DNA of 64,000 bases from Sphingopyxis sp. (GTDB lineage Bacteria; Pseudomonadota; Alphaproteobacteria; Sphingomonadales; Sphingomonadaceae), in contig NZ_JAIBES010000084.1 in the NCBI RefSeq assembly GCF_019459305.1, positions 1 through 64,000 on the forward strand, in the 5' to 3' direction. The position numbers were made by a program, and so were the translations under genes. The notes under the pieces were generated by a model, which was given only the letters and a program-made list of their open reading frames with translations, searched no databases and was not told the DNA's origin. This document shows, piece after piece, positions 32,581 to 54,913 of the stretch (within the stretch, counting starts at the first letter, position 1; every line of letters starts with the position of its first letter).

Positions 32581-33855
32581 CTATTGCAGTCGCTGCTCAT
32601 TCGGGCCGCACTGTACGCGGAGTCGTGCGCTGATATTCTCGGCCTCTCGGATGACGCGCAGTATGTTCCCGCGGGAAATCAGTTTTAGTTCGGCTTGAAG
32701 ATAGCCACGCCGCGCAAGCTCTGCGAATAGCTCTTGAAATCCTGCGGCCGTGTCCATTCCGACAATCCGGAACCGGTCGCCCTCCAGATCCGACCCTATG
32801 GCGATATGTTCGACGCCGACGGTTTTTCGGATATGATCGATATGGTCGGCGACCTGCGCCAATGTCGTTGCCGGAACGGGATGCTCGCGGCGCCATCGTA
32901 GCAAATCCGCCGCGACGCGCTCGGGTTCGCCGGGGTAAAGTGCAGTCAGTCTTGCGCTTTCCGCGGCTTCCGCCGCAGCCCACTGATTGACGGCGGAATT
33001 GGTCGCGCGTGGGATCAGGCTGACCATTACTACGCCGCCATTGGCGCCAAGTTGTTTCAAAATATCGTCAGGTACGTTCCGCATATGCGGAACGATGGCA
33101 TAGGCACTCGAATGGCTGAAAATGACAGGCGCTTCGCTGACGGCGAGGACGTCGTGCATCGTTGCGTGCGAGACGTGGCTGAGGTCGACTAGCATGCCAA
33201 GACGGTTCATTTCGCGAACCACCTGTTCTCCGAACGGCGAGAGCCCATCATGCTTCGCTGTATCGGTTGCCGCATCGGCGATGTCGATCGTCCGATTATG
33301 CGTCAGCGTCATATAGCGGACGCCGAGTTCGTACAGTTGTCGCAATACACCAAGTGACCCCCCAATTGCGTGTCCGCCTTCGGCGCCGACCAGCGATGCG
33401 ATCTTGCCTTGGGTCTGCGCGCGCTCGATATCGCTGGCGCTGGTCGCGAAGGCGAGGTCGTCGGCGTTGGCTCCGATAATGCGCTTGACGATGTCGATCT
33501 GTTCCAGCGTGGCGCGGACTGCGGCATCGCCTGACAGGCTTGACGGAACATAGACCGACCAGAACTGACCTCCCACCCCGCCTTTGCGCAGCGCTGCGAT
33601 GTCGGTTTGCCAGCGTGGATCGGTATCAGTGCCGTGTTTGAAATCCAATTCCGAGACGATTCCGCCAAGCCTCTCACGGAGCCTGATGGCAAGATCATTG
33701 TGGCCGTCGATCAGCGGGGCTTCAGCCAACGACTGCCTCGCATAGGCTTCTGGTGACGGCGAATCCCTAGCGTCGGCCGGCTCTGCCAGCCAGCTGCCGG
33801 CGATAATGTTTACGGCGGCACAGACGACGAGAAGGGACGGGTTACGCCGCGACAT
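32581..33855 (-). CDS. Secreted M19 family (renal-type) dipeptidase
   Basis: A 424-residue zinc dipeptidase with N-terminal signal peptide. The metal motif IDGHNDLAIRLRE (HxD) lies near residue 50. Further family motifs follow: GAEGGHAIGGSLG (bridging Glu), LVDLSHVSHATMHDVL, FSHSSAYAIVPHMRNVPDD and IGSDLEGDRF. The family hydrolyses dipeptides, often with a D-residue or dehydro-residue at the C-terminal side, and some beta-lactams. ATG 33855 follows GAGGA at eight bases. Divergent from the TonB receptor, with the shared palindrome (33951-33966) between them, so it is probably part of the GntR regulon. Confidence 0.92.
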   Translation of the reverse strand: MSRRNPSLLVVCAAVNIIAGSWLAEPADARDSPSPEAYARQSLAEAPLIDGHNDLAIRLRERLGGIVSELDFKHGTDTDPRWQTDIAALRKGGVGGQFWSVYVPSSLSGDAAVRATLEQIDIVKRIIGANADDLAFATSASDIERAQTQGKIASLVGAEGGHAIGGSLGVLRQLYELGVRYMTLTHNRTIDIADAATDTAKHDGLSPFGEQVVREMNRLGMLVDLSHVSHATMHDVLAVSEAPVIFSHSSAYAIVPHMRNVPDDILKQLGANGGVVMVSLIPRATNSAVNQWAAAEAAESARLTALYPGEPERVAADLLRWRREHPVPATTLAQVADHIDHIRKTVGVEHIAIGSDLEGDRFRIVGMDTAAGFQELFAELARRGYLQAELKLISRGNILRVIREAENISARLRVQCGPNEQRLQ

Positions 33856-33950
33856 GGCAGGGTTCCTCAAAATTAACTGATCATTTTCAATGCAGACGCC
33901 TTGGCTGCATATCCATATTTAACGCCCCTATTGACATAATCCAAGTTTTA

Positions 33951-33966
33951 ATATTTGATCAAATAT
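33951..33966. promoter_or_regulatory. Palindromic operator, candidate GntR site 1
   Basis: Perfect 16-base palindrome ATATTTGATCAAATAT between the divergent M19 dipeptidase and TonB-receptor genes. The same core occurs at 41536, 50992 and 54898. Its presence upstream of every unit around a GntR-family gene suggests a binding site of that regulator. Confidence 0.75.
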
Positions 33967-33990
33967 GACATCAAGTATGGAGGACGGTCT

Positions 33991-36309
33991 GTGAACAAGG
34001 GAGTGGGTCAATTCATGGCAGCGGCGCGCGTCGGCTGCCTTCTGGGCGCAAGTTGGATCGCCGTGTCCGCCGCGGCGGCAGAAACGGTTCAATCCGAAGC
34101 GCCGGTGGTAGCTGCGGGGGATGACACGATCATCGTCACGGCGCGCAAGCGTACCGAAACGATCATTGACGTGCCGATCTCGATTAGCGTCATGGGCGCA
34201 GAGGCGATCGAGCGTCGTGGTGCGAAAGATATGGAAGAACTGGCGCGCAGCGTGCCGAACGTGGTCGTCGAGCAAGGCGCAGAACAAGACAGCAAGCGCT
34301 TTCTGATCCGCGGGATCGGGGCCTCGTCGGGAACGGCGTCCACGGTCGCGTTGTATGTGGACGACACGCCGATCACCATCGGTACTGAAACGCCCGATCT
34401 CAAGCTGTTCGACGTCGAACGGCTTGAAGTCCTGCGCGGGCCGCAGGGGACGCTATTCGGATCGAGCGCAATGGGCGGCGCGATCCGCTATATTTCACCC
34501 CAACCAGGGTTTTCCGGCGTCACCGGGTCGGGCAAGGTCGAAATCGGCAAAATCGACGGCGGCGGCATGAATTACGAAGTGCAGGGTGCGCTGGGGCTGC
34601 CGCTGGCAACCGATACGCTCGCCTTTCGTGCCTCCGCCTTCTACCGCCGGGACGGCGGCTATGTGGATGTGGTCGACGAGACGACCGGGGCGCTGGTGGA
34701 TCAAAATGCTAACTCGACCGACACTTTCGGTGGCCGCGTCGCGCTGCGCGGCAAAATCGGTGAAGTGGTCGAGGCAACGGCCTCACTGCTCTTCCAGCAG
34801 CAGCAGCGAAACAATCTGCCGGTCTATTTCACGGGCCGCGGCGTCACCACCACCGTTCCCCTCGACGGGTTCCGGCGGACGCAGCGGTCGCCCGTCGACT
34901 CCGATGACAAGTTCCTCATGCCGAACCTGACGATCAAGGCGGATCTGGGCGGCGTCGAGCTGACCTCTTCCAGCTCGTATGTGCGGCGCCGCTTTCAGCT
35001 TCGCAATGACTTCAGCTTCTTTGTGCAGCGTGCGCTCGGCCTTCCCGATCCGGTTGGAACGCCGCTGGTGGTCGCCGGCAGCAATGACCGCCTCTTTGAA
35101 TCGGTCATCCAGGAAGTGCGGTTGGCCTCGCAGGGCAATGGCCGACTGAGCTGGCAGATTGGCGCCTACTACCAAAAGTCGGAGGCGCATCGGCAGCAAC
35201 GCGTGACGACGACGAACCTCGCGACGCTCGTCCCGCCGCTCGCCCCGCTCATCCTTCCTGGCGGCATCGTCTTCAGCTCGGACGTTGAGCCGGTGACCGA
35301 GCAGATCGCAGGATTTGGCGAGCTCGAGTTCAAGCTGACTGATAAGTTGAAGCTTACCGCAGGCGTGCGCGTCACCGAACTCAAGCAAAAGTTGGACCGC
35401 TTCGCCAATGGGTTCTTCAATGGCGGTTCGTCGCAGGTTTCGGCGCGGAGCAAGGAAACGCCGGTCACGCCGAAGATGTCTGTCAGCTACGACACCTCGG
35501 ACGATTCGATGATCTATGTAACTGCGGCGAAGGGTTTTCGCGAAGGCGGGCCGAACGCCCCCGTTCCGGTCACCATTCCGGCCTGCCGCGCCGCGCTCGA
35601 CGCGCTCGGGTTGAACGATGCGCCTGATTCCTATGGCTCCGACAATCTGTGGAGTTATGAGATTGGCGGCAAGTTTCAGTCGCGCGACCGCCGCGCAGGA
35701 GTGAACCTGGCGGCCTATCAGGTCGATTGGAGCAAGATTCAGCAGTCCATCGGTCTGGCTGGATGCGGTTTCGGCTTTACGGACAATGTCGGAAAGGCCC
35801 GCGTGCGCGGGGTGGAAGGTGAGGCATTCATCAAACCCGTCGAAAATCTGAGCCTCGAGTTCAAGCTCGGCATCGCAGACGCGCAGCTGACAGAGGATCT
35901 GATTACGGGCGCAAATGCCGCCGGTCCTATCGTGGCGGCGCCGGCGGGGACACCGTTGCCCTTCACGCCCAAATGGACGGTCGGCGCGGCCGTGCAATAT
36001 GACGTGGAGCTGGGGGGCGATACGCGTGCCTATGTTCGAACCCAGTTCGACCATGTCGGCAAGACCACACGCGATCTGGGCACGCCGAGCGATGATCCGC
36101 GCAGCCACAACCGGAAATCTTACAGTGTTGTCTCGGCTCGCGCCGCGGTTAGCAATGGCCCTTGGGAAGTGTCGTTGTTTGTCGACAATTTGTTCGACGT
36201 CCGCCCCGTCCTGTTCGACAGTTTCCAGGATTTTGCTCCGGGGACATCATCCTCGCGAACAACGATCCGTCCGAGGGCCTTCGGAAGCAGTCTCTCCGTC
36301 CGCTTCTGA
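33991..36309 (+). CDS. TonB-dependent outer membrane receptor
   Basis: A 772-residue receptor. Signal-like segment near residues 8-36 (VGCLLGASWIAVSAAAA), a TonB-box-like DTIIVTARKR, a plug domain with VPISISVMGAEAIERRGAKD and LRGPQGTLFGSSAMGGAIRY, then a beta-barrel ending in FGSSLSVRF with the terminal Phe required for assembly. This is the sphingomonad type that imports organic substrates rather than only siderophores. GTG 33991 is chosen because GGAGG lies seven bases before it; the ATG at 33955 sits on the operator palindrome. First gene of a unit with an S33 hydrolase and an ornithine cyclodeaminase-like gene. Confidence 0.95.
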   Translation: MNKGVGQFMAAARVGCLLGASWIAVSAAAAETVQSEAPVVAAGDDTIIVTARKRTETIIDVPISISVMGAEAIERRGAKDMEELARSVPNVVVEQGAEQDSKRFLIRGIGASSGTASTVALYVDDTPITIGTETPDLKLFDVERLEVLRGPQGTLFGSSAMGGAIRYISPQPGFSGVTGSGKVEIGKIDGGGMNYEVQGALGLPLATDTLAFRASAFYRRDGGYVDVVDETTGALVDQNANSTDTFGGRVALRGKIGEVVEATASLLFQQQQRNNLPVYFTGRGVTTTVPLDGFRRTQRSPVDSDDKFLMPNLTIKADLGGVELTSSSSYVRRRFQLRNDFSFFVQRALGLPDPVGTPLVVAGSNDRLFESVIQEVRLASQGNGRLSWQIGAYYQKSEAHRQQRVTTTNLATLVPPLAPLILPGGIVFSSDVEPVTEQIAGFGELEFKLTDKLKLTAGVRVTELKQKLDRFANGFFNGGSSQVSARSKETPVTPKMSVSYDTSDDSMIYVTAAKGFREGGPNAPVPVTIPACRAALDALGLNDAPDSYGSDNLWSYEIGGKFQSRDRRAGVNLAAYQVDWSKIQQSIGLAGCGFGFTDNVGKARVRGVEGEAFIKPVENLSLEFKLGIADAQLTEDLITGANAAGPIVAAPAGTPLPFTPKWTVGAAVQYDVELGGDTRAYVRTQFDHVGKTTRDLGTPSDDPRSHNRKSYSVVSARAAVSNGPWEVSLFVDNLFDVRPVLFDSFQDFAPGTSSSRTTIRPRAFGSSLSVRF

Positions 36310-36387
36310 GAGAAATAGCTGGAACCCCCGGAGGGGCGGGCAGGTGCTTTGCGGTGCTTGCTCGCCCCAAATTCCCAAGAGGAACGT

Positions 36388-37488
36388 ATGAAACTACTCA
36401 GGATATTCGGCTGGACCGTTGCGGGAATCGCAGCATTGGTTGTCTGCTTCACGACTGTGATGTTCGGCTATCGAAGTCACGTCCAGGGCCAGAATGAAGA
36501 TCTGGCGAAAATTCAATCACCGGCCGGTATTCAGGAAGCAAAATACATCCGGATCGGCGGTATTGATCAATGGGTGACGATCCGCGGCGAGAACCGTAAA
36601 AATCCAGTGCTGCTGTTTCTGCACGGCGGTCCCGGCATCCCGCTCTACCCGGTTGCCTATGACATCCTCCAACCATTGGAAAAGAACTTCACCATCGTCC
36701 AGTGGGACCAGCGCGGCGCCGGCAGGACTTTCGCGCGCAATCGCAAAATGCCCAAGTCGGCGCTGACTCTGAAGCGGCTCGAGGCAGATACCGTAGAGCT
36801 GATCGAGATATTGAGAGAGGAGTTGGGCAAGGACAAGATCGGTCTGGTCGCCGCGTCGGCCGGCTCAGGGTTCGGCATTCGCGTGGCCAAGCACAGGCCC
36901 GATCTTCTCTATGCCTATGTGGGCGTCGGACAGCTCATCGGGATCGATGAGGCGGATGAGCTTCTTTATGGTTTTGTGATGCGTCGTGCACAGGAGACCG
37001 AAAATCAGGACGCGCTGCAGGAGCTGCGCGCGATCGGAAAGCCGCCGTTCAAGGACATTGCGGAGTCGACCGTGGCCCGCCGGTGGTTGACCGAATTCTC
37101 GCCGCCTTCAGAAAAATCCTTCAACAGCACGTGGAATCTTCTTTCCGCGATGGCCGTGGCCCCCGGATATTCCATCGGAGACATTCGCGATATCATCTCC
37201 GGCAGCGAGTTCAGCCTCGATGCGCTCTACAACGACTATCGCACAACCGATGCGCGAAAGCTGGGGCGCGACTTCGAGGTGCCCTTGATTTTCATCCAGG
37301 GTGATCAGGACTATCTGACGCCAACCTTGCTGGTCGAACAATATGTCGGTTGGGTTCGTGCACCCTACAAGCGCGTGCTGATCTTGCGCAACGGCGGCCA
37401 TTCAGCCTCGGTGGCGCTGCCGCGGCAGTTTATTCCGATGCTCGAGCGGGTCGTTCATCCTCTTGGTGCCACGTCACCGCAAATGTGA
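36388..37488 (+). CDS. Membrane-anchored S33 (proline iminopeptidase-like) hydrolase
   Basis: A 366-residue alpha/beta hydrolase with one N-terminal membrane helix (WTVAGIAALVVCFTTVMFGY), so likely anchored facing the periplasm. The S33 signature HGGPGIPLYP lies near residue 80 and WDQRGAGRTFA near 108, both typical of proline iminopeptidases. The nucleophile elbow reads AASAGSG instead of GGSWGS, so the first Gly is lost but Ser and the following Gly remain. The acid is in QGDQDYLTP and the His in NGGHSASV. Likely an exo-aminopeptidase or amidase. GAGGA precedes ATG 36388. Confidence 0.85.
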   Translation: MKLLRIFGWTVAGIAALVVCFTTVMFGYRSHVQGQNEDLAKIQSPAGIQEAKYIRIGGIDQWVTIRGENRKNPVLLFLHGGPGIPLYPVAYDILQPLEKNFTIVQWDQRGAGRTFARNRKMPKSALTLKRLEADTVELIEILREELGKDKIGLVAASAGSGFGIRVAKHRPDLLYAYVGVGQLIGIDEADELLYGFVMRRAQETENQDALQELRAIGKPPFKDIAESTVARRWLTEFSPPSEKSFNSTWNLLSAMAVAPGYSIGDIRDIISGSEFSLDALYNDYRTTDARKLGRDFEVPLIFIQGDQDYLTPTLLVEQYVGWVRAPYKRVLILRNGGHSASVALPRQFIPMLERVVHPLGATSPQM

Positions 37489-37499
37489 GAGGCCTTGCT

Positions 37500-38465
37500 A
37501 TGCAGATTCGTATGTTTGACGCGCCGCAGGTGCGGCAGTTGCTACCGGTCGAGGAATGTATCGACCTGATGCGGGACGCCTTTCTCGCGGTTGCGCGGGG
37601 CGAGACGGGTCAGTTGCTGCGAAGTGTACTGATGCTGCCCGGCGATGATGGCGCATGCTTCGGGACTATGTCAGGGTATATGTCCGAACCCAATGTCTTT
37701 GGTGTTAAGGTGAACTCGGTCTTTCCAGCCAACTTTGGCACTGAATATCCATCGCATCAGGGTGTCATGCTGCTCTTCGAGCGCCAACACGGCGAGCTCG
37801 TGGCGATGCTGGACGCGGGGGAGATTACGGCCGTTCGGACAGCCGCGGCAAGCGCTGCAGCGACGGACGCTTTGGCCAGAGGCGAGTCGAGCCATCTGGC
37901 GGTTCTGGGCTACGGGCGGCAAGCGTCGATGCATGTCGCGTCGATGCGCGCCGTGCGACCAATCAACAAGCTTACAGTGTGGGGCCGGTCCGCTGGGCGG
38001 GCACGCGCCTTTGCCGAGGAACAGCAACGGCTGCACGCGGTCGCCGTGGAGATTGCGCCAGACGTTGAGCAGGCGATTGCGCATGCCGACATCGTCTGCA
38101 CGACGACGGCGGCGGCAAAGCCCATTCTCAAAGGCGACTGGATACCGGCGGGTTGCCATCTGAACGTCGTTGGATCGAGCATGGCGCGCTTTCGCGAGAT
38201 CGACACGCGCGCCGTCGTCCGTTCGCGGTTCTTCGTCGATTATCGCCCGATGTGCCTTCGCGAGGGAGGTGAGTTCCTAAAGGCGGTCGAAGAGGCTGCG
38301 GTGACGGCGGACCACATCGTCGGCGAGGTCGGCGAGGTGCTGGCAGGTACTTGCGAGGGTCGCCGCGATGCGGGCGAAATTACCGTGTTTAAGTCCCTGG
38401 GCATGCCGGTCGAGGATATCGCGGCGGCCCATTACGTGCTCAAAAAAGCTTTGATGAAAGACTGA
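37500..38465 (+). CDS. Ornithine cyclodeaminase / mu-crystallin family protein
   Basis: A 321-residue NAD(P)-binding protein. The N-terminal domain has MSGYMSEPNVFGVKVNSVFP (substrate Lys) and LDAGEITAVRTAAASAAATD. The Rossmann motif is LAVLGYGRQASMHVASM (GxGxxA/G-type) near residue 123, then CTTTAAAKPIL and the GCHLNVVGSSM motif. The group covers ornithine cyclodeaminase, imine/ketimine reductases, alanine dehydrogenase, EutC and iminosuccinate reductase BhcD. Its position back to back with a threonine dehydratase-like gene recalls EutB/EutC and BhcB/BhcD. It starts 11 bases after the S33 gene, so is cotranscribed with the TonB receptor. Confidence 0.85.
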   Translation: MQIRMFDAPQVRQLLPVEECIDLMRDAFLAVARGETGQLLRSVLMLPGDDGACFGTMSGYMSEPNVFGVKVNSVFPANFGTEYPSHQGVMLLFERQHGELVAMLDAGEITAVRTAAASAAATDALARGESSHLAVLGYGRQASMHVASMRAVRPINKLTVWGRSAGRARAFAEEQQRLHAVAVEIAPDVEQAIAHADIVCTTTAAAKPILKGDWIPAGCHLNVVGSSMARFREIDTRAVVRSRFFVDYRPMCLREGGEFLKAVEEAAVTADHIVGEVGEVLAGTCEGRRDAGEITVFKSLGMPVEDIAAAHYVLKKALMKD

Positions 38466-38493
38466 CGGGGCCAGTTGCAAGGGTCAGCTTGGG

Positions 38494-38540
38494 CCGCTTG
38501 TAACGACTTGCCCTCTCTCTCGTTACAAGCGGTCCTTTTT
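38494..38540 (+). terminator. Rho-independent terminator after the TonB-receptor unit
   Basis: CCGCTTGTAACG (38494-38505) and CGTTACAAGCGG (38521-38532) form a perfect 12-base-pair stem followed by TCCTTTTT, between convergent genes. Confidence 0.9.
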
Positions 38541-38544
38541 CGCA

Positions 38545-39543
38545 TCAGTCTTCGCGAAGATGGGCGGCAAGCGTTTCGATATCGGTGTTCGTTCCGCAGA
38601 CCAGTACGCCCACCTTTTGTCCCCGCAAGGGTTCCGCCAGCGGACCGCACAGCGCTGCCGCTGCCGCCGCCGCCGCAGGCTCCACCGCCAGCTTCATTTC
38701 GCGGAACATGAGCCGCATAGTACGGCGGATGTCTGCGTCGCTAACCTTGATCAAGGTATCGACATTCTGCTGACAGAGGCTGAACGTGAAGGGAGCTGCA
38801 TAAGGCGCATTCAGGCTGTCGGCGATTGTCGCACCCTGCTCAATTGGCATCGCTCGGCCTGCGGCAAAACTGCGATGCATTGAGTCCGCGCCATCAGGCT
38901 CGACGCCGTAGATTTTGGTGCTGGGCGAAAGGAGCTTGATCGCGCTCGACATGCCACCGCACAGCCCACCACCGCCAATCGAGATGATCACCGCGTCCAG
39001 ATCCCGTACCTGCTGGCAAAGCTCCATCCCCAAGGTAGCCGAACCCAGAGCAGTCGTCCGCCCCTCGAACGGGTGAACAAAATAGCGGCCCTCGTCCCTT
39101 TCGAATTCGGCGACGCGTTCAAAGGCTTGGTGGACATTGTCGGCAATGACAAGCTCGGCGCCATGGCTTTTGCACAATGCCATGCGAAACGTGCTCGCGC
39201 CGCGCATCATCACGACCTTGGCGTTGGTGCTCAGCGTCTTCGCGGCATAGGATGTGGCAACCGCGTGGTTACCCGAACTGACCGCGGTTACGCCGCGTTT
39301 GCGCTGTGCGCCCGAGAGCTGCATGATGTTGTTAAGTGCGCCGCGGACTTTGAACGAGCCTGCATATTGCAAAAGCTCAAGCTTGAGCATGACCTGCGTA
39401 TCTTGTCCGACGAGCGCAGAAATTTCGGGACCCTGCCAGCGATAGACAGGGGTCTCGATGATATGATCGCCTAGGCGCTGGCGAGTTGCCTCGATCTCGT
39501 CGAGCGAGAGCTTCGCGGGGACCGGTTTGTCATTGTCGGACAC
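38545..39543 (-). CDS. Threonine dehydratase-like PLP enzyme (serine/threonine or hydroxyamino acid dehydratase)
   Basis: A 332-residue fold type II PLP enzyme. The cofactor Lys is in YAGSFKVRGALNN near 66, the substrate loop is SSGNHAVATSYAAK near 90, and the phosphate-binding glycine loop is ISIGGGGLCGGM near 187. There is no C-terminal ACT domain, so it is of the catabolic/EutB/BhcB size, not biosynthetic IlvA. It probably removes water from a beta-hydroxy-alpha-amino acid to give an imino or keto acid; side-chain specificity is not readable. The start is GTG 39543. It follows the membrane serine hydrolase gene on the same strand. Confidence 0.88.
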   Translation of the reverse strand: MSDNDKPVPAKLSLDEIEATRQRLGDHIIETPVYRWQGPEISALVGQDTQVMLKLELLQYAGSFKVRGALNNIMQLSGAQRKRGVTAVSSGNHAVATSYAAKTLSTNAKVVMMRGASTFRMALCKSHGAELVIADNVHQAFERVAEFERDEGRYFVHPFEGRTTALGSATLGMELCQQVRDLDAVIISIGGGGLCGGMSSAIKLLSPSTKIYGVEPDGADSMHRSFAAGRAMPIEQGATIADSLNAPYAAPFTFSLCQQNVDTLIKVSDADIRRTMRLMFREMKLAVEPAAAAAAAALCGPLAEPLRGQKVGVLVCGTNTDIETLAAHLRED

Positions 39544-39592
39544 GGGGCTGGCATTCCTTTCTGGACAAGCGAAGATGAAATTGGGCCGCGGG

Positions 39593-41497
39593 CTACCAGC
39601 GTAGCCAGTTGAGCATGTTCAGCGCCGCAAAGAAGGGCAGGGTCGCCATCGATGCGATGAAGAGGATCAGGACCGAACGGGTCGATGTCCGCTTCGTCCA
39701 GCGCGCCGCGATCTGGAGAAGAATCGCAGTGATGATGCCTGATAGCGCGGCGAGCGCAACGAACTTGGCGATCACCAGCGGAGCGGGCGTGGCTACAGGC
39801 AGGTTCGACAATGACATGGCACCGACCGCGACGAGAGCCGATGACAGGATAATGCAGACCGCCGAGACGGTTGCCAGATGCAGTGAGATCCGGACGATCC
39901 GTCCGGGCGCGGTTCGCTTACGGCGAAGGAAGGCGGTCATGGCGGTACCTAGGATCACCAGAGCACCGCAGATCCCAATCGCCAACAGTGTCCACAATGT
40001 GGTTGGCGTCCCTTTCCAGGCAATGCGATTGAACGCCACGAATGGACGCCATCCGATCGCGAAGGAGGCGATGCGGCCGCGATTGTCGCGCGTGAAGACA
40101 AGTTGGTCTCGCCGCTCTGCCCCTTCGGCGCGGACGAAGCGATCCTTCCCGACTGGAATCCATCGAGAAACATCTCGACCAATGCTCACGACGACGCCGC
40201 CGTTCGCGCTCTTCGTTACATAAGCGGCCGCGAAGGCCGATCCGATGCGTTCGATGCTCGACAAATTGCTGATGTTAGGGCGGTAGGAGCCGAGGTAGGC
40301 ATCGACAGGGGCCTCTGCGACCCGTATCGGTGCGGCGCGCGCCGCGGTCCCGGGATGGAAGCGCCGCATGTAGGCGCGAGCGACCTGCTCGACGGTCATG
40401 ACACGGCCAAGCGTATTCATAGACACAAAGAGCCCCGTGCCCGTGTCGGGCGCGATAATTAGCAGGCTGGTAAAGCCAGCAATTTTTCCTCCGTGCGCAA
40501 GCAGGCGCCGGCCGTCGATATTCACTTCGTAGAAGCCATGCGCCATGCCTTCGATGCCGGGCGCGTTACGGGCTAGCGGCCTGCGCATTTGCTGCGCCGT
40601 TTCAGCACGCAGGATTCGGGCTTCGCCCAGTTCGCCGTCCTGCAGATGTGCCAGCATGAACTTCGCCATGTCATCCGCAGTCGATGTGACCGCTCCGGCA
40701 GGATAGATGTAGATATGTTCGACCGGGGCCGCCGCCAGCCCCCCATCGACGAAGCGGTAGGATCGCGACAGGTCGGGCGGCAGCTTCGCACCGGTTGTCT
40801 GCCTGAAGGTCGTGTGAGTCATGCCGAGTGGGGCAAAGATGTTCTTTGTCACATAGGCGTCGAACGGTTCCTTCACGACGCGCTCGACAATATAGCCGGC
40901 GAGGGCGGTTCCATAGTTGGAGTAGGCAATCTGTTGACCCGGCGGGGCGATGCGTTCGGGCAGCCCCTCCTTCAACGCGCGGCCAAGCGTCATATCCGCG
41001 CGGACGGGCTGGCGCGTTGCGAGACCAAATAGCTTGTCTTCGAAGCCTGCGGTGTGGCTGATCAGATGGCGCAGCGTGATCGGCTGGCGATAAGTGGCAG
41101 GCACGCGAAAATCGAGATACTGGTTGATGTCCGCGTCAAGGTCGAGATTGCCGCGCTCGACCTGCTGCATCACCGCAGTCCACGTAAATAGCTTGGTTAC
41201 GGAAGCGATGCGGAACCGGGTCGTCGCCGCCTCAGCGCGGCGTCCCGCGTCGACATCACTGAAACCATAGCCTTTGCTGAACAGCAGGCGCCCATTCTCG
41301 ACAACCGCGACAGTTGCGCCCGCCACCGCCTCGGTATCGAGCATCTGGGTCATGACTCCGTCGAGGAATAGCTCGGCGTCCCTCGCTTCGACAGCGCGCG
41401 CCGGTGCATTCAGGTCGGTGAGCGGCACTGCGTCGCGGGCCAAGGCTCCGCCGCAGGCAAGAATCGAACATAATCCCGCCAACATCCAGCGCCGCAT
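39593..41497 (-). CDS. Serine hydrolase (beta-lactamase class C fold) with C-terminal membrane domain
   Basis: A 634-residue protein. After a signal peptide (MRRWMLAGLCSILACGGALA) comes a penicillin-binding-like domain: RIASVTKLFTW as SxxK near 98, YSNYG as YxN near 192, LAHGGKIAGF as the KTG-box equivalent near 336. The last about 140 residues hold four hydrophobic helices, from LWTLLAIGICGALVILGTAM to LILFIASMATLPFFAALNML. So the hydrolase domain is tethered to the inner membrane by an integral domain, less common than the free secreted form. ATG 41497 is preferred over the TTG six bases upstream because GGGAGA lies before it. Divergent from the PD40-amidohydrolase gene with an operator copy between. 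Confidence 0.87.
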   Translation of the reverse strand: MRRWMLAGLCSILACGGALARDAVPLTDLNAPARAVEARDAELFLDGVMTQMLDTEAVAGATVAVVENGRLLFSKGYGFSDVDAGRRAEAATTRFRIASVTKLFTWTAVMQQVERGNLDLDADINQYLDFRVPATYRQPITLRHLISHTAGFEDKLFGLATRQPVRADMTLGRALKEGLPERIAPPGQQIAYSNYGTALAGYIVERVVKEPFDAYVTKNIFAPLGMTHTTFRQTTGAKLPPDLSRSYRFVDGGLAAAPVEHIYIYPAGAVTSTADDMAKFMLAHLQDGELGEARILRAETAQQMRRPLARNAPGIEGMAHGFYEVNIDGRRLLAHGGKIAGFTSLLIIAPDTGTGLFVSMNTLGRVMTVEQVARAYMRRFHPGTAARAAPIRVAEAPVDAYLGSYRPNISNLSSIERIGSAFAAAYVTKSANGGVVVSIGRDVSRWIPVGKDRFVRAEGAERRDQLVFTRDNRGRIASFAIGWRPFVAFNRIAWKGTPTTLWTLLAIGICGALVILGTAMTAFLRRKRTAPGRIVRISLHLATVSAVCIILSSALVAVGAMSLSNLPVATPAPLVIAKFVALAALSGIITAILLQIAARWTKRTSTRSVLILFIASMATLPFFAALNMLNWLRW

Positions 41498-47712: not shown

Positions 47713-50016
47713 TTATTGGGTGACGGACAGAATTTTCATGCTCTGCGCTGCAGGCAAGAGCTCGCGAAGTTCGAAGTGATTGGACCGAAGCGTGCCGCTA
47801 CTCGCCAACGCAAGCTGGTCGTCAAAGTGCGGCGATGCCGGATCGTCGCTAAGCCCGGGCAGAAACTGCGAGTAGGAATTGAGGCGTCCGCCGGGATGAA
47901 ATGCGACAACGAAAGGCACGCGCTGGCAGCAAAAGGCGGTGAGTTCAGACGCCCGGTCCGTCGCTGCCCGGTAACGCATCGTGCGCGGCGGCGCGGCGAT
48001 AAAGGGCCGACTGTTCCAGCCGCCTTGCAGGTCCAGGTGCCGTTCCATGCCGGTGAAAACGAAGGATCCGCCGGCGCCGGGCCATCGCTTGCCGCCACGG
48101 CTCAACTTGTGCCGGTCGCCATAAACCGGATGGCGTAGCGATCCATAAAATTCGGCATAATCGGCTTGCGCCGCTCTCACCGCGGCAACGAACAATCCAT
48201 CACGCTCCAACGCGATCGGCTTACCGTCGACGATTTCGAGCGCCATCTGATACGCTGCATTCCCGTCAATCCGGTTCAGCGCGTCAATGAAGAGGCTGAA
48301 GGCGAGCGCCGGACCTGAGTCCTCGACAAGACGGCCATCGAACGCGCGAAGTTGTGCCAGGAATTCGGCGATGCCGTTGCCGGATCCGAACTGCGCATCG
48401 TCGATCGATTTCAAACGGGTTGCCCATCGGTCGAACGCATAGATCTTCTCGTCCATCGTCAGGCGGATTGCATCTTGATCGGTCAGTTTTTCCGCCCTCT
48501 CGAGCAGCTCCATGTGCCGCAGCTGGCGCAAAGTTGTCTGGCCCGGCTCGAGCGCAAGATGGGGAGGGTGTTCATCGGGTATGATGACCCGTTCAGGGTA
48601 CATCATGTCCGGACTGACATTGTCATTCACGACATATCCCTGAGCGGGGTTTTCGACCTTGATCGTCTGGTCGAGCGTCACAAAGCCCTGCCAGGCCGTG
48701 CGCGCGCTGTTCCCGTCGACAACCCCACTCGGATCGATACCGGGCTTGCGGATCGGAATCCGTCCAGGACGGACGTAGAATATGGATCCATCGGCGCCGC
48801 CGATCAGAAGATTGGCGGGATAAATGTCCATCGCTGCAAGTTCGGCCCGCAGTTCCGCAAGGTTCTGCGCCTTGGCCATATTGTACATCCGGCCATGTCC
48901 CAAGCCGACGCGGTCGATGCTCGCATAGCTCGCGACAAAAGCATTCCGGCCCCGCCGCTCGACGACGGGGGAAAGCAGGCCGTTATGGCGCGTATATTCG
49001 AACTGTCCGGTCACCGGCGCGGCACCTTTGACCTCGACCCGGTAGGGAATCGTTTCAAAACGCCTCGTTTCCTGATCAAACCGATAGCGCGAGCTATCGT
49101 CTGCGAGCGTTTCGACGCGGTAGCAATCGCCGGCAAATCGCGGACCCTCGGTCCAGCCCCAGGCGAAATCCCGGCTGTGGCCAAAGAATGGCATCGCAGT
49201 GCCCGTGGGCTCGAAAGCCTGAAAGTCGAAGTCGCCGGCTTTCATGCGCCAGGCATAGAACAAGGTTCCGATCGCGCTCCACGGACCGTGCGAGTCTGAG
49301 GAAAATAGAACGCCGCCGTTCGCGACGCGGCTTGGGCCAGCAACCCAGGCGTTCGACCCCTTGAGCGCCGGTTCTGCCGGCGCCGGCGCCTTGCTTTCGA
49401 GTGCGGCGATCCGCGACGGGCAGATTTGTGCGGCCTCAGCGACAAGCTGGCTGAATGCTGCAAGCGGCATTGCGGGCTCGAGTACGGGTGCCCAGGCAGG
49501 GCGTTTGGCGGGATTGTCGGCGAGGTAGCGATTTATTCCCGCAATATAGGCATCGAGGTTGCGACGGTATTGTTCGGGTAGCTGCGCCAGATTCTCGCGG
49601 GCGCTTTCGAGGATCCGGAACCGCCGGACTGCGACGTCGGAGGCGACGCTGTCCTTGATCGCATTCGCCAGGTGAGGCGTGACCTTGTCGGCGCCGATCG
49701 GCCCCGGACCGAAATTGGCGGCAAGTTCGCCCTTGGTGGCAAGATAAATCAACAGCAGCTGATCGATCCTGTCTTCGGCCGTGGCAAAGCCGAGTGCGAA
49801 GAAACCATCCTCTTCACGCGCGGCATAAATATGGGCCATGCCCCATTCGTCGCGAAATATGTTTGACTTGCCCGGGGCCATCAGCGGGCCAGGCTCGCGT
49901 GGAGTTTGAACCTCGGTAATCGGCGCCGGCGCCGCTGTGCTGGTCAGCGGGAATCCGGCGATCGCCAGCAGCGCTGTCGCCGTCGTGAGGTAGAATTGGG
50001 AGCCCGCCGCCATCAT
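47713..50016 (-). CDS. Penicillin acylase / acyl-homoserine-lactone acylase family protein
   Basis: A 767-residue Ntn-hydrolase precursor with a signal peptide and hence periplasmic. The alpha chain includes IFRDEWGMAHIYAAREEDGFFALGF-type opening (IFRDEWGMAHIYA). The autocleavage and nucleophile site is LKGSNAWVAGPSRVANG, with Ser at the new N-terminus of the beta chain near residue 222. Asn in the YNMAKAQN region and Arg further on fit the family oxyanion set. It hydrolyses an N-acyl amide such as an acylated amino acid, lactone or beta-lactam side chain; the acyl group is unknown. It overlaps the upstream dehydrogenase gene by four bases (ATGA), an intimate coupling of amide hydrolysis with hydroxyacid oxidation. 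Confidence 0.9.
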   Translation of the reverse strand: MMAAGSQFYLTTATALLAIAGFPLTSTAAPAPITEVQTPREPGPLMAPGKSNIFRDEWGMAHIYAAREEDGFFALGFATAEDRIDQLLLIYLATKGELAANFGPGPIGADKVTPHLANAIKDSVASDVAVRRFRILESARENLAQLPEQYRRNLDAYIAGINRYLADNPAKRPAWAPVLEPAMPLAAFSQLVAEAAQICPSRIAALESKAPAPAEPALKGSNAWVAGPSRVANGGVLFSSDSHGPWSAIGTLFYAWRMKAGDFDFQAFEPTGTAMPFFGHSRDFAWGWTEGPRFAGDCYRVETLADDSSRYRFDQETRRFETIPYRVEVKGAAPVTGQFEYTRHNGLLSPVVERRGRNAFVASYASIDRVGLGHGRMYNMAKAQNLAELRAELAAMDIYPANLLIGGADGSIFYVRPGRIPIRKPGIDPSGVVDGNSARTAWQGFVTLDQTIKVENPAQGYVVNDNVSPDMMYPERVIIPDEHPPHLALEPGQTTLRQLRHMELLERAEKLTDQDAIRLTMDEKIYAFDRWATRLKSIDDAQFGSGNGIAEFLAQLRAFDGRLVEDSGPALAFSLFIDALNRIDGNAAYQMALEIVDGKPIALERDGLFVAAVRAAQADYAEFYGSLRHPVYGDRHKLSRGGKRWPGAGGSFVFTGMERHLDLQGGWNSRPFIAAPPRTMRYRAATDRASELTAFCCQRVPFVVAFHPGGRLNSYSQFLPGLSDDPASPHFDDQLALASSGTLRSNHFELRELLPAAQSMKILSVTQ

Positions 50017-50978
50017 GCCTTCTCCTTTGCAGCCGTTCCATCGTCACGCGGGCCTAACCGGCTGCGAACCAGCGACCACATCAACTGACGGTCGCGCCAC
50101 TCGCGTTTGCTGCGCAGGTCCAGCATTGGGGTCCGCGCGCGGCATGCCTCGGTCACGGCTGCGATGGCGGTTTCTTCCCACGGTTCTGCCACACCCAGAT
50201 CGCGGCCGAGCTCCTGATAGGCTTCGCGAAAGCGCCGGGCATATCCCGCGACACCATCATCGGCGTTGAGGTCCATGGTTGCGAACGGACCGAGAAAAGC
50301 CCAGCGCCGACCGAGCGATTCCGTCATGCAGAGATCGAGATCGTCGGGGCTGATCACGCCGTTCGCAACCAGATGCATCGATTCATTGATCACGGCCGCC
50401 TGGAGCCTGTTGGCGACATAGCCCGGCACCGGCTTGCGCAGAATGATCGGCGCCTGGTCGAGCTGGAGCATGATCGCGCGGGTGCGTTCAATGGTTTCGT
50501 CGCTTGTCGCAGGTCCGGCAAGCAGTTCGACGAGTGGTACCAGGTGCGGCGGGTTGAACGGATGCGCGACGATACATCGATCGGGTCCGGCAGCGTCCTG
50601 GAATATATCGGCCGGCAAAAGACTGGAGCAGGAACTGGCGATGATTGATAACGGGGCGGCTTCACGTCCGATTTCGGCAATCGCTTCGCGCTTGGCATCG
50701 AGGCTTTCCGGCGCGCTCTCCTGAATAATTTCGGCATCTGCAACGGCATCGCGCAAGGTGGAGGCAATGGAGATGCGTGCCATGATTTTGTCGCGCCCCC
50801 GCACGAGGCCGAACGCCGCCATATCGTCGAGCGAGGTCGCGATGGCGCCAAGTGCAGCATCCATTGCAGCGACACTGGGGTCGAAAAGCGAAACGCGATA
50901 TCCCGCTTTGGCGTAAAGTAGCGCCCAGCCCCGGCCGATCGTGCCAACGCCGACGATTGCGGCCTTTCCCAAACTCAT
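50013..50978 (-). CDS. 3-hydroxyacid dehydrogenase, lambda-crystallin / L-gulonate 3-dehydrogenase-like
   Basis: A 321-residue NAD-dependent enzyme of the 3-hydroxyacyl-CoA dehydrogenase superfamily. Rossmann motif AIVGVGTIGRGWALLYAKAG near residue 6, IIQESAPESLDAKR near 87, SIIASSCSSLLPADI and VAHPFNPPHLVPLVELL. The C-terminal half matches the lambda-crystallin type in GRRWAFLGPFATMDLNADDG and the closing REWRDRQLM. Members act on free hydroxy acids such as L-gulonate or carnitine rather than CoA esters, so it probably makes a free beta-keto acid. ATG 50978 follows GGAGA. First gene of a unit with the penicillin acylase and S41 peptidase; an operator copy lies 14 bases upstream. Confidence 0.88.
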   Translation of the reverse strand: MSLGKAAIVGVGTIGRGWALLYAKAGYRVSLFDPSVAAMDAALGAIATSLDDMAAFGLVRGRDKIMARISIASTLRDAVADAEIIQESAPESLDAKREAIAEIGREAAPLSIIASSCSSLLPADIFQDAAGPDRCIVAHPFNPPHLVPLVELLAGPATSDETIERTRAIMLQLDQAPIILRKPVPGYVANRLQAAVINESMHLVANGVISPDDLDLCMTESLGRRWAFLGPFATMDLNADDGVAGYARRFREAYQELGRDLGVAEPWEETAIAAVTEACRARTPMLDLRSKREWRDRQLMWSLVRSRLGPRDDGTAAKEKA

Positions 50979-50991
50979 TCCATAATCTCCA

Positions 50992-51009
50992 GATATTTGA
51001 TCAAATATC
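50992..51009. promoter_or_regulatory. Palindromic operator, candidate GntR site 3
   Basis: Perfect 18-base palindrome GATATTTGATCAAATATC, the best copy in the window, between the dehydrogenase unit and the divergently transcribed GntR gene. A site in a regulator's own promoter region fits autoregulation. Confidence 0.8.
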
Positions 51010-51139
51010 ATACACAATGGAGCTATTCTTTCAAGGAAGGATGTTCCTATAATTGATAATTTATGGATCACGGCCTATGGAGGCTTGCCGATTGTGTCGG
51101 AGGAAGGCAGCTTGGCAGGGTATCAAAGGAGAAATTTCT

Positions 51140-51898
51140 GTGGCGAAACGGGCGGATGAGAACAATTCGGACCATCCAGCGAGCGACGCTGGCGGTGCAC
51201 TTAGCACGCGCGGACTTCGCGTCATCCGGCGCCAGACGCTCAAGGAGCGCATCTATCAGGAGCTTCGCAAAGCGCTTCAGGAGGGCAAATTCGAACCCGG
51301 CGAGTCGATCACCGTCAAGCTCCTCGAACAGGAGCTCGGGGGCGGCACGATGCCGATACGCGAAACGATCCAGCGACTGGCGGCCGAAGGTGCGCTCATC
51401 AACCTGCCAACCGGGCGGGTGAAGGTTCCGCTTTTCACCGCGGACGAGTTCGACGAAATTAAGGAAATCCGGTTGCGGCTCGAAGGGCTTGCAGCACGCA
51501 ATGCAGCCATTCGACTGAGCGACGAAGATTTTGCCCGGATCGAATTATCCCACCAGCGGCTGATGTCAGTGGCGACGGGCAACACCGAATGGGGCGAGAT
51601 CGTTCACCTCAATTATGTCTTTCACTTCGCGATTTATGAAGCGGCGCGATCGCCGCACCTGCTTTCGATGATCGACAGTCTTTGGCTGCGCGTGAGCCCG
51701 CTTCTCTCGATTCCCTTCAAGAAGCCCGCCAAGGTGCGCGCCGAATGGGTGCTGGGCCACGAACACAACCAGCTACGGCTTCTGGATGCCCTAAAACAAC
51801 GCGACGGCAAGGCCGCAGAGGCCGTAATTCGCGAAATCATCCTTGGTTCGGCGGCGTGGTACCACCGCCATCATCAGTTCGCAGCCGAGCCGCTTTAG
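51140..51898 (+). CDS. GntR family (FadR subfamily) regulator
   Basis: A 252-residue regulator. The N-terminal winged helix is LKERIYQELRKALQEGKFEP, then GESITVKLLEQELGGGTMPIRETIQRLAAEGAL (about residues 32-85). The C-terminal FCD ligand domain includes EIKEIRLRLEGLAARNAA, FHFAIYEAARSPHLL and HEHNQLLDAL-like His/Asp residues for a metal-assisted acid ligand. GTG 51140 follows AAAGGAG at eight bases; the earlier ATG at 51053 would add a Cys/Arg-rich tail foreign to the family. It sits inside the operator-marked region and is the natural candidate for the TTTGATCAAA-binding protein. The inducer is probably a carboxylate intermediate. Confidence 0.92.
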   Translation: MAKRADENNSDHPASDAGGALSTRGLRVIRRQTLKERIYQELRKALQEGKFEPGESITVKLLEQELGGGTMPIRETIQRLAAEGALINLPTGRVKVPLFTADEFDEIKEIRLRLEGLAARNAAIRLSDEDFARIELSHQRLMSVATGNTEWGEIVHLNYVFHFAIYEAARSPHLLSMIDSLWLRVSPLLSIPFKKPAKVRAEWVLGHEHNQLRLLDALKQRDGKAAEAVIREIILGSAAWYHRHHQFAAEPL

Positions 51899-53334
51899 AC
51901 CGATGGGGTCGCCGGACGCGCTGCCGCTCCCTTGTGCCGCCGTCGCAATGCATAATAAGCTGCGCCCGCCAAGGTCCAGATCAGGAACGCCAGCCAGGTC
52001 CGTTGCGGGAGGCTCAAAAGCATATAGATGCAAACGAGAATGCCGGTCGTGCAAACGACGGGCGCGAACGGAACGCGGAACGGGCGCGAGACGTCTGGTT
52101 CGCGGTGGCGCAGGTAAAGCACGCCCGCGCACACGAAAACGAAGGCCACTAAGGTTCCCATCGAAATCAGCTCACTGAGTGTTTGAATAGGGAATGTCGC
52201 TGCGGTTGCCGCAACGACGAGGCCTGCGACGACGATTCCTCCCGTCGGCGCGCGGCTCCGCTCTGATATGCGTGCAAATAACGAAGGCACCAAGCCGTCA
52301 GCCCCCATGGCGAATAGAATTCGGCTAAGGCCGAACAGCAGGACGACGAGCACCGACGTCAGTCCAATGACGGCCCCCGCGGCAACGGTAATCTTGAGCC
52401 AGGCGAGATGGCTGCCAGCATAATCGAGCGCAGTACTTACCGGACTTGCCGAGTCGAGTACGGGATAGGGCGCGATCCCAGTAAGGGTGAGGGCGAACAG
52501 GATATAGAGCCCGGTGCAGAAAAGCAGCGAACCCAAGATCCCAATGGGGACACTGCGCTGTGGATTCTTGGCCTCCTTCGCCGCTGTCGAAACGCCATCG
52601 AACCCCAGATAAGCATAGAAAATGATGGCTGCGCCGCGAAAGACCCCGCTCCACCCATATTCGCCTGAGGTGCCGCTGTTCGGCGGCAGGAAGGGCTGCC
52701 AGTTAGCAACATCGATGGACAAAGACGCGACCCCGATGAACAGGACAATCACGGTGACCTTGATCGCCACTAATATGCTGTTGACGCGAACCGAAAGCTT
52801 GACTCCGCGCACGAGGACGAACGTGAGCAAGAGTATGATCATCAGGGCAGGCGCATTGATTGCCGGAGCGCCGAATGCGAGCGCGCCATTCTCGGCCGAT
52901 ATCGGTGGGCTCGACAGTTGCGGCGGGATTACGATACCGAAGCTTTGCAGAAGATTGACCAGATAGGCCGACCACCCAACCGAGACCGTCGCTGCGGCCA
53001 TCAGATATTCCAGCAGCAGGCACCATCCGATGAACCATCCAACCAAGCGCCCGAACGCCGCATGCGCATAGTTGTAGGCGCTGCCAGACGCAGGAACCAT
53101 GGCGGCGAACTCGGCATAGCATAGCGCCGCGCAGAAGCAGGCCGCAGCCGCAATGAGAAACGACAGGACAATCGCGGGTCCCGCGTGGTCTGCCGCGACG
53201 ACACCGGTCGACACGAAGATACCGGCGCCCAATATTCCGCCGATGCCGAGCAGAACCAGGTCCCAGGCACCAAGGTGACGTGCCAGCGCGTTATCCGCTG
53301 CCGCCTCCGCCTGAACGTCTTGCAGTCGTGACAT
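51895..53334 (-). CDS. APC family amino acid permease
   Basis: A 479-residue transporter with about twelve helices, of the cationic amino acid/YfnA-like type. First helix and substrate loop LVLLGIGGILGAGIFVSTGV, then LCYAEFAAMVPASGSAYNYA, and FYAYLGFDGVSTAAKEAKNPQRSVP, all highly typical. ATG 53334 follows GGAG at eight bases. The gene is convergent with GntR, overlapping it by four bases. It belongs to the BKACE / thioesterase unit (56 bases behind the thioesterase stop), so the transported molecule is likely the pathway substrate or product. Confidence 0.9.
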   Translation of the reverse strand: MSRLQDVQAEAAADNALARHLGAWDLVLLGIGGILGAGIFVSTGVVAADHAGPAIVLSFLIAAAACFCAALCYAEFAAMVPASGSAYNYAHAAFGRLVGWFIGWCLLLEYLMAAATVSVGWSAYLVNLLQSFGIVIPPQLSSPPISAENGALAFGAPAINAPALMIILLLTFVLVRGVKLSVRVNSILVAIKVTVIVLFIGVASLSIDVANWQPFLPPNSGTSGEYGWSGVFRGAAIIFYAYLGFDGVSTAAKEAKNPQRSVPIGILGSLLFCTGLYILFALTLTGIAPYPVLDSASPVSTALDYAGSHLAWLKITVAAGAVIGLTSVLVVLLFGLSRILFAMGADGLVPSLFARISERSRAPTGGIVVAGLVVAATAATFPIQTLSELISMGTLVAFVFVCAGVLYLRHREPDVSRPFRVPFAPVVCTTGILVCIYMLLSLPQRTWLAFLIWTLAGAAYYALRRRHKGAAARPATPSV

Positions 53335-53821: not shown

Positions 53822-53825
53822 GGCT

Positions 53826-54761
53826 CTAAAAGGCAACCTGGTCGCCGCCCTTGAGCTCGAGCGCTTCGCGCGCTTCGGCTGGCGTGGCAATTTCCAGACC
53901 CAGCTCACGAAGAATGCGTGCAATCTTGCCGACTTGTGCCGCGTTGCTTTCGGCGAGCTCGCCGCGCGCGATATAGAGACTGTCTTCCAGCCCCACCCTG
54001 ACGTTGCCGCCGAGCAGCGCGGACATGGTCACGAACGGCATCTGGTCACGGCCAACACCGAAGCAGGAAAGATAATAATCATCGCCGAACAAGCGGTCGG
54101 CGATTTCCCGCATATGGAGAAGATTGGCAGGATCGGCCCCAATCCCGCCCAGGATGCCGAAAATGCACTGAATGAGGAAAGGCGGTTTGATCAGCCCGCG
54201 ATCGGCAAAATGTGCGAGCGAATACAGATGGCCGACGTCATAGCATTCATATTCGAAGCGCGTCCCGCAGCCGTGACCGAGGCGAACAATAATTTCTTCG
54301 ATCTGCTGAAAGGTGTTGCTCTGGAATCCGGACCGCGTGCTTTCCAGAAACGGCTTTTCCCAGTCATGCTGCCACTTGCTATAGCGATCGGCTAGTCCGA
54401 ACACGCCGAAATTCAAGGTGCCCATGTTCAGCGACGCAAGTTCGGGCGCGGCGCGGAGCGGGCCGGCCAGCCGCTCGTCGATAGTCATCCCTGGACCGCC
54501 ACCGGTAGTCGTGTTGATAATGACATCGGATTGCTGCTTGATACGCGGCAGGAATTCCATGAAGAGGTCGGGGTTGGCGGTCGGACGACCGTCTAGCGGT
54601 TCTCGGGCGTGCAGGTGCACGATTGCCGCGCCGGCCTCGGCCGCTGCAACCGCTTCGTGCGCAATCTGCTCCGGCGTGATGGGCAAATGTTGCGACATCG
54701 TCGGCGTATGGATCGACCCCGTTACGGCGCAGGTTATGATGACCTTTTTTGCGCGTCGCAT
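53826..54761 (-). CDS. BKACE family beta-keto acid cleavage enzyme (DUF849)
   Basis: A 311-residue zinc TIM-barrel enzyme that condenses a beta-keto acid with acetyl-CoA and yields acetoacetate plus a new acyl-CoA. Family motifs in order: ITCAVTGSIHTPTMSQHLPI near residue 9, IVHLHAR (zinc His pair) near 47, FEYECYDVGHLY near 168 and GGNVRVGLEDSLY near 250 (final zinc and catalytic residues). Known members act on 3-keto-5-aminohexanoate, dehydrocarnitine and others, so substrate needs the side-chain pocket to be modelled. AAAGGAG lies before ATG 54761. First gene of the unit with the thioesterase and the permease. Confidence 0.93.
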   Translation of the reverse strand: MRRAKKVIITCAVTGSIHTPTMSQHLPITPEQIAHEAVAAAEAGAAIVHLHAREPLDGRPTANPDLFMEFLPRIKQQSDVIINTTTGGGPGMTIDERLAGPLRAAPELASLNMGTLNFGVFGLADRYSKWQHDWEKPFLESTRSGFQSNTFQQIEEIIVRLGHGCGTRFEYECYDVGHLYSLAHFADRGLIKPPFLIQCIFGILGGIGADPANLLHMREIADRLFGDDYYLSCFGVGRDQMPFVTMSALLGGNVRVGLEDSLYIARGELAESNAAQVGKIARILRELGLEIATPAEAREALELKGGDQVAF

Positions 54762-54769
54762 TTCGCTCT

Positions 54770-54785
54770 CCTTTAGATCAAATAA
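54770..54785. promoter_or_regulatory. Degenerate operator copy near the BKACE start
   Basis: CCTTTAGATCAAATAA matches the operator consensus at 11 of 16 positions and overlaps the BKACE ribosome binding site. It may be a weak second site paired with the better copy at 54898. Confidence 0.35.
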
Positions 54786-54897
54786 TTATTGCCGGCCGTC
54801 GAGGCGCGGGATCCCGATGTCGTACCGAAACTTGCCCCATCTTCAGCGCATGATGGACTTCTTCGACTCGACAAGGGGGCAGGTTAGGGCTAATTAC

Positions 54898-54913
54898 AAA
54901 TTTGATCAAATAT
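54898..54913. promoter_or_regulatory. Palindromic operator, candidate GntR site 4
   Basis: AAATTTGATCAAATAT differs from the 16-base consensus at one position. It lies 137 bases upstream of the BKACE gene, in the promoter region of the BKACE / thioesterase / permease unit. Confidence 0.72.

Follow-up and report, generated by a model that had tools for sequence, protein, structure and literature searches.

A candidate local GntR regulon with a variant palindromic operator in a putative catabolic gene island of Sphingopyxis sp.

Local regulons under FCD-type GntR regulators are an already known kind of system, and we compare here the closest described examples with a 14-gene, 22 kb cluster in a 64,000-nucleotide stretch of DNA from Sphingopyxis sp. 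(positions 1 to 64,000 of contig NZ_JAIBES010000084.1, assembly GCF_019459305.1; hereafter the window), in which a 10-base palindrome, TTTGATCAAA, recurs around a GntR gene. Atu1419, an FCD/VanR-group GntR repressor of Agrobacterium fabrum, is likewise FCD-type and controls a catabolic region, and the passages of its description considered here report several 10-base palindromes in the target promoters, some overlapping the -10 box; its operator, however, is ATGTATACAT and its pathway that of hydroxycinnamate degradation (PMC7797058). Operators of the FadR subfamily are, in excerpts of a survey, also A/T-rich palindromes in which position 28 of the helix-turn-helix (HTH) correlates with the outer base, but their consensus (usual, not defining) consists of TKGT/ACMA boxes, whereas TTTGATCAAA has no GT/AC box (PMC4494728). 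A related palindrome discussed below, TGTGATCACA, retains GT and AC, 4 bases apart. The nearest solved structure to the window regulator by sequence is that of Escherichia coli McbR (YncC; 4p9f, E 5e-21), for which part of the source reports binding to very many AT-rich sites and a proposed response to dihydrofolate (PMC13343897), in contrast to a local catabolic regulon.

The enzymes of the cluster also have described counterparts. Its BKACE falls in the same subgroup as BKACE15 of Paracoccus denitrificans (363 bits), which accepts several uncharged beta-keto acids according to a portion of its description (PMC11961710); BKACE15 is not the enzyme that adjoins a GntR gene in the P. denitrificans locus L036, which is closer to 3e02. 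A beta-hydroxy acid dehydrogenase accompanies BKACE in the deoxyribonate oxidation cluster as well, but the P. simiae operon has an SDR dehydrogenase, a lactonase and MFS transporters, and the passages of that paper considered here make no mention of TonB, an acylase or peptidases (PMC6365646). Deoxyribonate oxidation was rejected as the function of the window cluster, none of whose 14 proteins matches an SDR family in Pfam. Within open-licence PubMed Central, we found no paper describing this operator or gene combination, none joining the operator strings with GntR and none joining BKACE, TonB and sphingomonads, and TTGATCAA was not found among the literature matches listed. The regulatory system is a local FCD-GntR regulon of the known kind whose operator departs from the published FadR-subfamily consensus; the operator class and the gene combination appear to be a new variant, and the proposal of an earlier, sequence-only reading (the initial annotation) that the pathway is undescribed is plausible on this limited literature. 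We consider it probable that the FCD-type GntR protein represses the island through the TTTGATCAAA palindromes, in the service of uptake and beta-hydroxy-acid degradation.

Operator copies in the window and the genome

Four sites, to which no strand is assigned, lie ahead of predicted gene starts. Operator 1 (ATATTTGATCAAATAT, 33951-33966) is a perfect 16-base palindrome, 24 bp ahead of the TonB gene start (GTG 33991) and 95 bp ahead of the M19 dipeptidase gene. Operator 2 (ATTTGATCAAAA, 41538-41549) lies 40 bp ahead of the S12 hydrolase start and 82 bp ahead of the amidohydrolase start; taken from 41536, it agrees with the 16-base consensus at 12/16 positions, and its self-symmetric part is TTTGATCAAA alone. 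Operator 3 (GATATTTGATCAAATATC, 50992-51009), a perfect 18-base palindrome, is 13 bp ahead of the dehydrogenase ATG and 67 bp ahead of the first ATG in the GntR frame, and it overlaps the -10 hexamer TATGAT of a promoter-like TTGAAA-16-TATGAT before the dehydrogenase gene. Operator 4 (AAATTTGATCAAATAT, 54898-54913), 136 bp ahead of the BKACE start, matches the consensus at 15/16 positions and is self-symmetric at 14/16.

The initial annotation had placed strong palindromes at 33951, 41536, 50992 and 54898, in the TonB/M19, S12/amidohydrolase, dehydrogenase/GntR and BKACE gaps, with no further strong copy in the window, and all of this was confirmed: exact TTTGATCAAA occurs in 4 copies, all at operators 1-4 and all in gaps between called genes. 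None of the 159 other 10-base palindromes of the same composition has more than one copy in the window, and the largest count of any such palindrome in 100 first-order Markov shuffles was 2. At up to 2 mismatches TTTGATCAAA is not enriched (17 found versus 16.4 expected), so only exact or near-exact copies are informative. A scan with a matrix trained on 11 sites from other species ranked the four sites 1-4 (32.3, 29.3, 28.6 and 19.7 bits), operator 2 being fourth. The weak palindrome also annotated, at 54770 (54769-54786, no strand assigned), fell to background level, with 9.9 bits and rank 8, outscored by three places that had never been proposed (38446, 38742 and 41627).

The same restriction was found across the genome (3.97 Mb, 155 contigs, completeness 99.96). 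Many random matches had been named beforehand as an outcome that would speak against a regulon; exact TTTGATCAAA occurs 5 times, versus about 0.65 expected at 62% GC, with four copies in the cluster and 1 further copy in an unrelated region with open frames on both strands. The 12-base form ATTTGATCAAAT has three exact copies, all in cluster gaps (0.023 expected), and, apart from the site at 41538, five copies with one mismatch, three of them inside open frames (contigs C70, C73 and C85); the remaining two lie close to a cytochrome-bd-like gene (C110) and between groES-/groEL-like genes (C118), respectively (genes named by eye). Among 298 sampled family genomes, the 14-mer TATTTGATCAAATA was found only in this genome and once in another (G170), where none of 19 window proteins has a match in the surrounding 19 kb. 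A plasmid look-up with the operator 3 region gave no match. The sole mixed site in the genome, TGTGATCAAA at C117:27096 (L123 1497), upstream of an S58 (DmpA-type) peptidase gene, was rejected as a further regulon member: it sits inside an open frame that by eye resembles a transposase helix-turn-helix, and was therefore judged a coincidence.

The operator in relatives and its covariation with GntR

Orthologues of the regulator (42-44% identical) were found in Sphingosinicella microcystinivorans, a Sphingosinicella metagenome-assembled genome (MAG) and Sphingomonas canadensis, and each of the three loci also has a BKACE (68.8-70.1%), a TonB receptor (34-38%) and an APC permease (31-34%). Both Sphingosinicella genomes carry TTTGATCAAATATCATA, the same 17 bases as operator 3, between GntR and BKACE, and these two genomes and S. 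canadensis carry CTTTGATCAAAG where the TonB gene and a neighbouring gene diverge; the conservation in relatives that the initial annotation had asked about is thus seen beside GntR, BKACE and TonB. Since two of the nearest orthologues are in S. microcystinivorans and the Sphingosinicella MAG, microcystin degradation (mlr) was considered; MlrC is an M81 peptidase, and the idea was rejected as PF07364 (M81) has no match in the window genome, with 4 in G242 and 2 in G277.

More widely, exact TTTGATCAAA lies within 1.5 kb of the GntR gene at 12 of 49 homologous loci, all from other genomes and drawn from three search sets (7 + 13 + 29), whereas none of the 159 alternative palindromes of that composition is found at more than 2 of these loci (mean, 0.08). 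In the HTH alignment, its distance ahead of the GntR match is at most 150 bases in 7/12 rows, the window included. A second form, TGTGATCACA, is near the GntR gene at 16/49 loci (L015, L034, L038, L039, L041, L042, L045, L049, L052, L056, L059, L062-L065 and L067), and appears to be a sister operator whose outer base depends on Arg. The HTH position that is Lys in the window regulator (TVKLL) is Arg in 16/16 TGTGATCACA loci versus 3/13 TTTGATCAAA rows (Fisher p 1.4e-5, or 0.005 with near-identical lineages collapsed by eye; both values are uncorrected for ancestry). The 13 TTTGATCAAA rows include the window and L030, which was added by hand since about 3.4 kb separate its site from GntR. Of the 60 alignment rows, the count excludes L066, L108 and L110, whose sites are mixed or of another kind, and 28 rows lacking a site in range, one of which (L061) has TTTGATCAAA about 1.4 kb away and Ala at this position. 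On the basis of an alignment made partly by way of FadR, we take the covarying position to be position 28 of the 2015 survey. In excerpts of that FadR-subfamily survey, Arg 28 is reported to prefer a G/C pair, and the direction of covariation in the window clade agrees with this preference (PMC4494728).

That GntR itself reads the TTTGATCAAA operator is well supported, the residue-base covariation being our strongest evidence. It appears improbable that another regulator, such as the Lrp/AsnC protein (55403-55858) or one of the FNR/CRP type, reads the palindrome with GntR a bystander: the Lrp-family gene is about 0.5 kb from operator 4, but the motif tracks GntR homologues in other genera and families, with an outer base that varies in step with the GntR HTH, and the 4-base spacer characteristic of FNR-type sites is absent from TTTGATCAAA. 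The Lrp/AsnC gene stands in a stretch (55403-59379) with a phenylalanine-hydroxylase-family gene, an aminotransferase gene and a fumarylacetoacetate-hydrolase-like gene; L030 has an aminotransferase 58% identical to that of the window near its GntR/BKACE cluster.

The neighbourhoods of BKACE homologues bear on how far the palindrome reaches. Rather unlikely, in our judgement, is an arrangement in which its targets are confined to GntR, BKACE and possibly TonB, with the peptidases, acylase and amidohydrolase forming an independent set for peptide scavenging that comes to share the sites through its location. Such an arrangement would fit the three relatives, where the only genes shared alongside the operator are those for GntR, BKACE, TonB and a permease, the hydrolases being different. 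Operators 1 and 2, however, occupy the TonB/M19 and S12/amidohydrolase gaps, far from GntR and BKACE, and GntR, TonB and an S12 hydrolase reappear at the locus of the closest BKACE (76%, L108), where TGTGATCAAA lies between TonB and GntR and exact TTTGATCAAA is found at 14291 near the start of two divergent genes. L108 is one of 14 further BKACE loci (the best-scoring in other genomes, 12-20 kb each), of which 2 have exact TTTGATCAAA, the second (L116) about 190 bases from a TonB match; a TonB match is present in 13/14 and a GntR match in 9/14 (E<=1e-6), some GntR matches being weak and the background rate of TonB and GntR genes unmeasured.

Several loci differ in content. Two Neomegalonema MAGs have exact ATTTGATCAAAT on both sides of the GntR gene (L035, 5302 and 6076; L040, 9861 and 10634), with ABC transporter, glutamine-synthetase-like and aminotransferase genes as neighbours in L035 (by eye), a TTTGATCAAA regulon whose cargo is apparently different. 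The window genome (G000) has a paralogous locus on contig C73 (L107 3181-17126) with GntR (31%), BKACE (63%), TonB, SDR and HyuA/HyuB-like genes (by eye). P. denitrificans L036 has a similar set (GntR, BKACE, HyuA/HyuB-like and SDR genes). Cross-talk with the paralogous locus was rejected, as its 19 kb contain neither TTTGATCAAA within one mismatch nor TGTGATCACA. In L113 (8697-11095), the genes for a 3HCDH-type dehydrogenase (36%) and BKACE adjoin one that by eye is thioesterase-like, an arrangement known from carnitine pathways.

Cluster genes and the putative pathway

In the account that follows, binding and repression are inferred, as are the inducer, export, the sequence of the steps and the chemical class to which the substrate belongs. 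The regulator (51077-51898, forward strand; start uncertain, ATG 51077 or later) has the Pfam GntR and FCD domains (PF00392, 47.9 bits, cut-off 27; PF07729, 73.1 bits, cut-off 24.3) and is the proposed island repressor: it would bind the TTTGATCAAA-centred palindromes in four promoter regions, repress the surrounding units and probably its own gene too, and be released by an inducer, most likely the substrate or a beta-hydroxy or beta-keto acid derived from it. The outer-membrane TonB-dependent receptor (33991-36309, forward; PF00593, PF07715) would import a peptide- or amide-linked compound, and one or two APC permeases would carry its parts inside. Permease 1 (45084-46484, forward; PF13520) is of the APC amino acid type; permease 2 (51895-53334, reverse, likely start 53334; PF13520) is BcaP-like and of uncertain membership.

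The imported compound would be trimmed by exported hydrolases, consistent with the export signals or membrane anchors that six cluster proteins besides the receptor appear, by eye, to bear. The hydrolases in question are an M19 membrane dipeptidase (32581-33855, reverse, likely ATG 33855; PF01244, 359 bits; predicted exported by eye), an AmpH/D-aminopeptidase-like S12 serine hydrolase (39593-41497, reverse; PF00144) whose C-terminal portion looks membrane-spanning and for which AmpH is the best NCBIfam match, under cut-off, a protein with a TolB-type propeller and an amidohydrolase domain (41632-44988, forward; PD40, Amidohydro_1, Amidohydro_3; predicted exported), an S41 peptidase (46559-47683, reverse; PF03572; predicted exported) and an Ntn hydrolase of the penicillin amidase/cephalosporin acylase family (47713-50016, reverse; PF01804, 317 bits; nearest PDB entry 1keh; predicted exported), in whose sequence a KG-SN processing motif is visible. 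The cluster also encodes a proline-iminopeptidase-like alpha/beta hydrolase (36388-37488, forward; PF00561; all 11 NCBIfam matches under cut-off).

With an acylase nearest to the cephalosporin/glutaryl-7-ACA acylases among solved structures, and with S12 and M19 families that include members acting on beta-lactams, these enzymes might be imagined to attack a beta-lactam or similar drug whose side chain is then burned. This seems very improbable, given that AmpH is the best match of the S12 protein, which stays under every cut-off among the 25 NCBIfam families shown (47 matched in all), those of class C beta-lactamases included, that the acylase is distantly similar (117 bits over 614 residues) and that BKACE has no evident role in beta-lactam catabolism.

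For the amino-acid part of a peptide- or amide-linked substrate, the handling enzymes would be a PLP (pyridoxal phosphate)-dependent serine/threonine dehydratase-like protein (38545-39543, reverse; PF00291; nearest PDB entries 1v71 and serine racemases) and an imine reductase of the ornithine cyclodeaminase/mu-crystallin family (37500-38465, forward; PF02423; nearest PDB entry 6t3e). Hydroxyectoine degradation by EutB/EutC was rejected, with all scores under cut-off (EutB, 219.7/413 and 192.1/413.35; EutC, 185.7/471.65).

The free beta-hydroxy acid would be oxidized to a beta-keto acid by the 3-hydroxyacid dehydrogenase (50013-50978, reverse, ATG 50978; PF02737), which belongs to the lambda-crystallin/carnitine dehydrogenase branch of 3HCDH, with 343.5 bits against the NF004783 cut-off of 347 and lambda-crystallin (3ado) as its nearest PDB entry. 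The lambda-crystallin branch acts on the free hydroxy acid, which fits the need of BKACE for a free beta-keto acid. BKACE (53826-54761, reverse; PF05853, 345 bits, cut-off 24.8) would then cleave this acid with acetyl-CoA to an acyl-CoA and acetoacetate. The protein passes the curated cut-off of NF053538, a 3,5-dioxohexanoate-type model (505 bits, cut-off 430), and its VHLHAR aligns with HLHAR of 3e02, 3e49 and 8rio, so that the His-x-His motif, which binds zinc in BKACE, is conserved. According to part of one description, canonical BKACE needs Glu14 to hold the substrate amino group (PMC10470551); the window protein reads VTGSIHTP in this region (placement by eye), making an amino-bearing beta-keto acid less likely as its substrate.

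The combination of this dehydrogenase with BKACE recalls the L-carnitine pathway, in which carnitine dehydrogenase and BKACE belong to the same two families. We give a carnitine-type pathway still less credence than the beta-lactam one: the dehydrogenase reaches 182.1 and 173.6 bits where the carnitine dehydrogenase models require 414 and 592, no thioesterase family is matched among the 14 cluster proteins, and TonB, the peptidases and the acylase would be out of place.

Distribution and wider meaning

Repression of the whole island by GntR, for uptake and beta-hydroxy-acid degradation, has to be weighed against a number of observations that tell against it. In the window, promoter-like matches in 32500-51500 are not enriched (4 found versus 5.2 expected in shuffles), operator 2 precedes the promoter-like -35 of the amidohydrolase unit, and the start of permease 2 trails BKACE by about 490 bp. 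At the GntR-homologue loci, 37/49 have no exact TTTGATCAAA (16 with TGTGATCACA, 21 with neither), the 12 that do represent only about 7 lineages, and the Paracoccus loci L036 and L037 have GntR adjoining BKACE and neither operator form. Arg is also found in 17/28 alignment rows with neither site (counted by eye), which leaves the non-Arg TTTGATCAAA rows to carry the covariation. At the two loci of relatives that were read (L011/L031 and L030), there is no 3HCDH match and an SDR gene adjoins GntR, which suggests that the same oxidation is done there by a different enzyme family. The dehydrogenase has no match at E<=1e-75 in 297 other sampled family genomes and the acylase none at E<=1e-100 in 79 other genus members, which limits conservation to GntR, BKACE, TonB, a permease and the operator; the full 14-gene set was not found in any other genome examined. 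Set against this, one regulon around GntR remains well supported by the relatives and by the residue-base covariation, and the seven units and 14 genes of the initial annotation can be counted as it had claimed, whereas the inclusion of permease 2 and a direct effect of the repressor on the amidohydrolase unit are weak points.

The GntR gene has a match at E<=1e-35 in 1/80 genus genomes, its own, and, because the matches of GntR, the dehydrogenase and the acylase are so restricted, the island is sporadic; it was perhaps acquired. Its GC content is unremarkable. BKACE itself is common, with a match at E<=1e-110 in 59/298 sampled family genomes (its own included).

A broader reading, which we put forward tentatively, is that a clade of FCD-GntR repressors reads TKTGATCAMA, with residue 28 setting the outer base (Arg for TGTGATCACA; Lys, Leu, Ala or Ile, and sometimes Arg, for TTTGATCAAA). 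In Sphingopyxis sp., the regulator may run a new pathway in which a peptide- or amide-conjugated beta-hydroxy acid enters by a dedicated TonB receptor, is cleaved in the periplasm and, as the free acid, is degraded by the dehydrogenase and BKACE, and TonB-GntR-BKACE may be a general sphingomonad module for conjugates of this kind. To our knowledge, the natural substrates of most sphingomonad BKACE enzymes are not known, and a BKACE tied by one operator to a receptor, permeases, hydrolases and a repressor would offer a direct route to its substrate. The TTTGATCAAA/TGTGATCACA pair, together with the change of HTH residue, would provide a testable rule for predicting the regulons of a broad GntR clade.

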